Assembly: GCF_015840915.1 (NCBI RefSeq)
Contig: NZ_CP060398.1
Coordinates: 3,038,001 to 3,102,000 of the forward strand
Origin: Synechococcus sp. CBW1002
Lineage (GTDB): Bacteria > Cyanobacteriota > Cyanobacteriia > PCC-6307 > Cyanobiaceae
Reading direction: 5' to 3'
DNA length: 64,000 nt
Positions 39,984 through 41,374 of the stretch are shown here, one piece after another; the stretch's first letter is position 1, and the number at the start of each line of letters is the position of its first letter. Both the position numbers and the translations under genes were made by a program. Below the pieces are notes generated by a model. That model saw only the letters and a program-made list of their open reading frames with translations, was not told the DNA's origin and searched no databases.

Positions 39984-41060
39984 TCAACCGATGGTGGGTG
40001 CCGTCAGGGCCACAGGTGCGGCACTGCTGGCTGCAAGGTCGAGCGGGAAGTTGTGCGCATTGCGCTCATGCATCACTTCCATGCCCAGACCAGCGCGGTT
40101 GAGGATGTCGGCCCAGGTGTTCACGACCCGGCCCTGGCCATCCAGGATCGACTGGTTGAAGTTGAAACCGTTCAGGTTGAAGGCCATCGTGCTCACGCCC
40201 AGGGAGGTGAACCAGATGCCGACCACCGGCCAGGCGGCCAGGAAGAAGTGGAGGCTGCGGCTGTTGTTGAAGGAGGCGTATTGGAAGATCAGGCGACCGA
40301 AGTAACCGTGGGCAGCCACGATGTTGTAGGTCTCTTCCTCCTGGCCGAACTTGTAGCCGTAGTTCTGGCTCTCGCTCTCAGTGGTTTCACGCACCAGCGA
40401 CGAGGTCACCAGGGAGCCGTGCATGGCGGAGAACAGGCTGCCACCAAACACACCGGCCACCCCCAGCATGTGGAAGGGGTGCATCAGGATGTTGTGCTCA
40501 GCCTGGAACACCAGCATGAAGTTGAAGGTGCCCGAGATGCCGAGCGGCATGCCATCGGAGAAGGAGCCCTGACCGAAGGGATAGATCAGGAACACGGCGA
40601 AGGCGGCCGACAGCGGAGCGCTGTAGGCGACGCAGATCCAGGGACGCATGCCGAGGCGGTAGGAGAGTTCCCACTGCCGGCCCATGTAGGCGGAGATGCC
40701 GATCAGGAAGTGGAACACCACCAGCTGATAGGGACCGCCGTTGTACAGCCACTCATCGAGGCTGGCGGCTTCCCAGATCGGGTAGAAGTGCAGGCCGATG
40801 GCGTTGCTGGAGGGAACAACAGCACCGGAGATGATGTTGTTGCCGTAGATCAGCGAGCCGGCGACCGGCTCACGGATGCCGTCGATGTCGACGGCAGGGG
40901 CGGCGATGAACGCCACCACATAGCAGATGGTGGCGGCCAGCAGGCAGGGGATCATCAGCACACCGAACCAACCCACGTAGATGCGGTTGTTGGTGGAGGT
41001 GACCCACTCACAGAAGCTTTCCCAGCTTCCGCTGCGGCCGCTGCGGACGGCAGTGGTCAT
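39984..41060 (-). CDS. psbA: photosystem II D1 protein
   Basis: A 358-residue D1 reaction-centre protein with five transmembrane helices. It binds P680 chlorophylls, pheophytin, QB and the manganese cluster. The N-terminus [20 protein letters not shown] is of the picocyanobacterial type. The residue equivalent to position 130 of standard numbering is Gln (Q129 here, in [15 protein letters not shown]), as in the low-light D1:1 form rather than the high-light Glu form. The last 15 residues ([15 protein letters not shown]) after the DLA site are the extension removed by CtpA. A second psbA copy is expected elsewhere. A repeat-rich leader lies upstream. Confidence 0.98.
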
Positions 41061-41101
41061 GGATGAAGAGGACGGATGGGATGGAGGTATGGGGTCCGCT
41101 T

Positions 41102-41153
41102 GTGCGCTGCGTTAGTGCACTGCGTTTGTGCACTGCGCTGGTGCACTGAGAGT
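41102..41153 (-). repeat. four 13-base tandem repeats in the psbA leader
   Basis: Four contiguous units on a 13-base period: GTGCGCTGCGTTA, GTGCACTGCGTTT, GTGCACTGCGCTG and GTGCACTGAGAGT. The last three contain the palindrome GTGCAC. The block ends 41 bases upstream of the psbA start codon. Confidence 0.85.
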
Positions 41154-41374
41154 TGCCGATGCCATGGGGAGACCATGGGCCGGGCAACGTCTGGCGACAC
41201 AGGGGCAACCCGCAACCGCTCCAGGGAACATCAGCCGGGGAAACCCGGAATGCAACCGAAGCGATCAGCCGACGGGATGATCCCGAACGGTTAGAAAAAC
41301 GTTACGTGAACTGATTAGAGAGCGCCGGCGATTCGCTGCCTGGGAAATACATTGTTTCGTTGCTTCAGGTTGCT

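Follow-up and report, generated by a model that had tools for sequence, protein, structure and literature searches.

A 13-base tandem array in the psbA leader of Synechococcus sp. CBW1002, probably a lineage-specific expansion of a single ancestral unit

Does a short tandem array directly upstream of a core photosystem gene control its expression, or is it a trace of sequence turnover in a loosely constrained leader? The question is raised by a psbA locus of Synechococcus sp. CBW1002 lying within a stretch of 64,000 nucleotides, hereafter the window, in which the original prediction placed a fourfold 13-base repeat before the start codon and proposed that its units bind a protein, form alternative RNA stems or change in copy number to tune D1 synthesis. 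The downstream gene was correctly recognized as psbA (39984..41060, minus strand), a 358-amino-acid open reading frame for the D1 protein of photosystem II whose product is 100% identical in the one other genome of the genus that was compared (G001). Its E/Q switch residue is Gln, found in GRQWE as residue 129 of the product and taken here as the position called 130. According to the available part of one source, Gln130 marks the D1:1 isoform, whose gene is single in Synechococcus and accompanied by two to five genes for D1:2 (PMC3441193). The CBW1002 genome, a single contig of 3,854,122 bases, resembles the pattern given there, with the array-bearing Gln gene beside three Glu genes (L002, L003 and L004); two further matches at 33–34% identity are probably psbD. 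L002 and L003 have near-identical leaders, and L004 is more divergent (82% identity). Although they lie at distant places, L002 and L003 share 99.2% of their coding DNA and show no difference in the 188 bases upstream of the ATG, which gene conversion or recent copying could explain. In the comparison of paralogues that had been proposed, the array precedes only the Gln gene and is absent from the three other psbA genes of the genome.

The stretch 41102-41153 does hold the reported cores, with GTGCAC at 41115, 41128 and 41141 and GTGCGC at 41102, and 41 bases (41061-41101) separate it from the start codon at 41060. Four units are real, but the register was off by five bases, and because of this shift the fourth unit (41141-41153) was incomplete in that frame, matching in its first part only. 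Read on the psbA strand (minus), the array consists of four complete 13-base units, CAGTGCACCAGCG / CAGTGCACAAACG / CAGTGCACTAACG / CAGCGCACAAGCG, running from 41148 to 41097 (41097..41148 in forward coordinates) and ending 36 bases before the ATG. The units differ from one another by 1 to 3 bases, and GTGCAC is kept in three of the four. The tandem score of the array was 18, against a maximum of 14 among 2000 first-order Markov sequences generated from its own leader (0/2000 reached it), and none of the 300 sequences of a second simulation reached it either. TRF reported the array as 41102-41148 with 3.6 copies, 88% matches and a score of 66, the top of the 64 rows of the window. In a genome-wide sample of 464 kb (the window plus 20 stretches of 20 kb), 21 rows, some of them overlapping, scored at least 60; the array ranked 14th, and was one of two at which the stop-to-stop frames stay below 100 codons (97 at the array). 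By this rank and position, the array is unusual for non-coding DNA of this genome, but not extreme. A coding repeat was rejected, as the frames across the array are short and without support. The Rfam scan returned a single match at 15 bits against a threshold of 45, and a search of viral contigs with the two-unit pattern gave no exact match.

G001, the sole relative available at genus level, is not a near-clone, since the coding DNA of its psbA is 96.8% identical and 23 of 189 fourfold sites differ. Its orthologous leader contains one unit, CAGCGCACAAGCG, identical at 13/13 positions to unit 4 of the window (41109-41097) and placed at the same distance of 36 bases from the ATG, with the core GCGCAC rather than the palindrome GTGCAC. 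The predicted difference in copy number between relatives was thus borne out, with four units against one in this single relative; the full array is absent from the close strain, an outcome that had been named in advance as a refutation, as far as one genome shows. Units 1-3 (41148-41110) correspond to one continuous gap of exactly 39 bases. Overall, the leaders are 86% identical over 149 bases of the upstream block and 95% over 80 bases covering the start-proximal and coding part, and the window carries insertions of 51, 12 and 39 bases relative to G001, along with a few gaps of 1-2 bases. Because the array is absent from other leaders, a gain in the window rather than a loss in G001 is inferred, with one genus relative to set the direction.

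A wider survey was built from 118 loci with a psbA start in various cyanobacteria, reduced to 106 distinct upstream regions of up to 300 bases by leaving out L058 (too little upstream sequence) and 11 regions sharing their last 150 bases with a kept one, among them copies of the window's own leader and of L003. The unit occurred with fewer than two mismatches in two of the 106, the window and G001, in both without mismatch; three more regions held it at two mismatches, a level that two sequences of a single shuffling round also reached. The four-unit array was found in the window alone, and its conservation is not supported among these regions. Above-chance tandem repeats as such, defined by a score reached in at most 1% of a region's own simulations, were present in 15 of 106 regions where about one was expected, most of them near two copies. 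Tandem duplications are accordingly common upstream of psbA. The view that arrays are rare in such leaders was fair without being absolute, given that L145 (14 bases), L151 (11) and L070 (7) hold, like the window (13), three or more copies, all of unrelated units. Some of the 15 repeats are located well upstream, where they may be beyond the promoter, and those of L141-L143 may fall in the end of a neighboring gene. Own, unrelated short tandem repeats were seen in L145 (-207 to -163), L140 (-207 to -182) and L151 (-128 to -96), where L145 and L140, from one genus, carry 14-base units that differ from each other and sit at nearly the same position. L073 has a further 7-base array starting 317 bases upstream, outside the 15/106 count.

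With up to three mismatches, the two-unit pattern matched the whole CBW1002 genome (3.85 Mb) only at the array. Across 400 family genomes, CBW1002 included, 57 genomes gave 73 listed matches, and all three listed with 0 or 1 mismatch were the window's array. A control pattern read backward gave 13 matches, so that the forward pattern is in excess, possibly owing to the composition of coding DNA. Apart from the window's array and an array in G354, 68 of the 73 listed matches remain, with G001:C9, G168 and G155 among the places matched; L013, L014 and L017 were inspected. The G354 array (CAGYGCACGRRCC, three units; L017 near 1015-1060) is similar and also of 13 bases, lies beside a tRNA-Pro gene (1128-1201) instead of psbA, and its likeness is probably coincidence. 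When the leader and first codons served as a DNA query, 77 of the 400 genomes matched, namely CBW1002 itself, G001, 69 at the start-proximal and coding end, and 6 in which nothing but short segments in other parts aligned. One of these six, G280, shares 20 exact bases that cover unit 4; the match lies among long open frames, in 3.5 kb that contain no psbA, and was taken as chance because a match of its E-value is expected about once in 400 genomes.

Whether the array can act on the mRNA depends on where transcription begins. A consensus sigma-70 scan of the leader gave no site. Motif sampling on the leaders of 29 Gln-type family genes (two of them with the residue not read) settled on TTCATGAA sites when a longer stretch was used, and gave TGAAG-like best solutions when restricted to -128 to -34 (27 of 29 leaders). 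The CTTAGCGT motif ranked fifth best of the 16 restricted runs, and the -10-like matrix (CtTAGCGTt) was for this reason seeded by hand with it, before refinement on the 29 leaders, with the window and G001 excluded and the search bounded at 30 to 128 bases before the ATG. Of these leaders, 21 scored at least 5, with the site 46 to 114 bases upstream of the ATG, and 8 scored below 5. In the window, its best site is CGTAACGTT (41298..41306, minus strand), a putative promoter element starting 246 bases before the ATG, whose score of 7.57 exceeds the 95th percentile of shuffles (6.60) and falls short of the 99th (7.77). The same sequence is the best site of G001, 147 bases before the ATG; being orthologous, the two sites are not independent evidence. 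With the -10-like motif at 41306-41298, the array is probably transcribed, as part of a long 5' UTR. If CGTAACGTT is the promoter, the leader would measure about 230 nt in the window and 130 nt in G001, and the other leaders would range from roughly 30 to 100 nt. As a separate observation, the exact palindrome TTCATGAA occurs upstream of 17 of the 29 family genes (L042, L043, L046-L048, L050, L052, L053, L128, L129, L131, L134, L138, L141, L147, L149 and L150), in most cases 120-170 bases upstream of the ATG. In 8 of the 17 it is present twice or more, often at a spacing of 10-12 bases such as an OmpR-type response regulator might need. The window and G001 lack it and carry TGTAACAGGAT(C/T)GTTACTTCT(G/T)AAGTAA instead.

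Other parts of the leader help to define the setting of the array. Next to the gene, CCGTCCTC (41068..41075, minus strand) is found exactly in 6 of 29 family leaders, and 16 of 29 have the looser CCGTnCT in the 60 bases that precede the ATG; a simple Shine-Dalgarno-like string was present in the last 20 bases of 1 of 29. Directly upstream of the array, folding predicts an imperfect hairpin, GTTGCC...CCATGG...CCATGG...GGCAAC (41152..41188, minus strand), in which the 12 bases inserted relative to G001 give rise to a direct duplication of 11 bases (9/11 alike). Further upstream, the region with the 51-base gap in G001 (41203..41271, minus strand) has two similar halves and may go back to an older duplication, of about 34 bases; the likeness gave a shuffle p of 0.0065 by gapped alignment, in one comparison chosen after inspection. 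The two ends of the leader, that is, the bases beside the ATG and the putative promoter block, are kept with respect to G001.

Altogether, these observations make it likely that the array is a lineage-specific tandem expansion, from one ancestral 13-base unit to four, in the long, indel-rich leader spacer of the D1:1 psbA gene. The ancestral state would have been a single unit 36 bases before the ATG, which tandem duplication, by replication slippage or unequal recombination, would have turned into four. The setting appears to be a poorly constrained spacer within an unusually long and fast-changing 5' leader that would have grown repeatedly by duplication, through the array, the 11-base duplication in the neighboring hairpin and perhaps the older one of about 34 bases. 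Duplication in a loosely constrained spacer is suggested because the leader grew in this way while the bases on the ATG side and the putative promoter block stayed. Furthermore, the above-chance arrays of unrelated units in L145, L151 and L070 suggest that such arrays come and go. Under this expansion, any regulatory effect of the array would be slight or absent; none of the observations calls for a function, and a binding or tuning role is unsupported. Several points nevertheless count against a neutral reading, namely the GTGCAC core kept in three of four units, the placement of variation in a predicted loop, the stable fold of the array, the effect of removing the last unit and the 73 forward matches against 13.

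An RNA element, in which hairpins of paired units affect the stability of the leader, the access of RNases or the spacing of ribosomes according to copy number, is the alternative for which most can be said, and is still unlikely. The probable position of the array inside the transcript is in its favor, and adjacent units can indeed pair, as had been suggested, in predicted hairpins of 7 base pairs and -9.9 kcal/mol for units 2-3 or, alternatively, of -8.5 kcal/mol for units 1-2. Folded alone, the array reached -19.7 kcal/mol, while shuffles averaged -10.2 and 2/500 mononucleotide shuffles were as low, an energy that repeated palindromes would be expected to give anyway. Of the three variable columns of the units, two are located in the loop of the predicted hairpin, as selection on the stem could, on few sites, bring about. 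The 211-base stretch 41240-41030 is only moderately more stable than its shuffles (z -1.37; 19/200 as good, within the shuffle range). Tuning through structure was not supported when the copy number was varied, as the mean probability of being unpaired that was predicted around the AUG was 0.59 for each of 1 to 6 units (0.43 with none) and that of CCGTCCTC stayed at 0.65-0.69 (0.37 with none). The ancestral unit thus changes the predicted fold and the added units hardly do, which at this length is weak evidence either way; the ancestral unit may matter, because predicted start accessibility falls to 0.43 on removing the last one. The one-unit sister gene would form no such hairpin, and the unit is without conservation among the 106 regions. 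A broader scenario, in which the D1:1 promoter moved away from the start codon in this genus and duplications, the hairpin-forming array included, produced a nascent post-transcriptional control region in one lineage, is quite improbable.

A DNA or RNA operator, with each GTGCAC unit a putative regulator binding site multiplied to raise affinity, would fit the palindromic core retained in most units, and regulatory elements in psbA leaders have precedent. It is nonetheless very unlikely, in that no other place in the genome matches the unit pair with up to 3 mismatches, a period of 13 bases does not correspond to full helical turns and the one unit of G001 has GCGCAC in place of the palindrome. 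The contrast of four and one units between two genomes of the genus could also suggest a variable-number repeat by which strains reversibly tune D1:1 synthesis. Such a switch is highly improbable: the comparison comprises two genomes only, the 1 to 3 base divergence of the units argues against rapid recent turnover, and an array outside the coding frame allows no on/off switching of a reading frame. An assembly artefact, finally, is hardly credible for non-identical units spanning only 52 bases in a genome assembled as a single 3.85-Mb contig.

Lineage-specific expansion thus being the preferred explanation, the locus illustrates that a photosynthesis gene, though very conserved, can have a leader that lengthens by duplication of whole units with no change in the protein. 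It also calls for caution, as repeats in psbA leaders can be lineage noise. Should the array act on the mRNA after all, the two genomes would offer a natural comparison of D1:1 expression with one and with four units.

Regulatory sequence in psbA leaders has precedent. In Synechococcus elongatus PCC 7942, light-responsive elements reportedly reside in the untranslated leaders of psbAII and psbAIII, as demonstrated by experiment; to our knowledge, no tandem array is part of them. A literature search on tandem repeats in Synechococcus psbA leaders gave no paper on the subject, judged by title and start of abstract, and the available part of PMC2758279 held nothing on leader repeats. In the accessible text of another study, the AU-box of Synechocystis psbA2/psbA3 is described as a target of RNase E, rich in A and U and situated in a 49-nt leader (PMC10989914). 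The array shares with it a position upstream of the start codon in what is probably the psbA 5' UTR, but differs in being GC-rich and repeated and in lying in a putative leader of more than 200 nt (compared with the same part of PMC10989914). No AU-rich motif was found beside the ribosome binding site, the 36 bases between array and ATG holding 15 A or T and no AU-rich run. A closer parallel is provided by the TAACTGA heptamers of cyanobacteria, which the available portion of the source presents as short, strain-specific, intergenic tandem repeats often near start codons, with intergenic differences between two very similar Cyanothece strains consisting mostly of indels in 7-base steps (PMC4679880). 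Like the heptamer sets of that portion, the array is made of short head-to-tail intergenic units, strain-specific and near a start codon; its unit, in contrast, has 13 bases instead of 7 and another sequence (CAGYGCACNARCG), and it occupies one place in the genome by pattern search, whereas the heptamers form several or many sets (PMC4679880). Its head-to-tail units above chance, and a copy number that differs between near relatives with the flanks kept (4 vs 1, in one relative), are those of an ordinary lineage-specific, minisatellite-like short tandem repeat. The array is thus of the general kind of cyanobacterial short tandem repeats, and not of the heptamer family.
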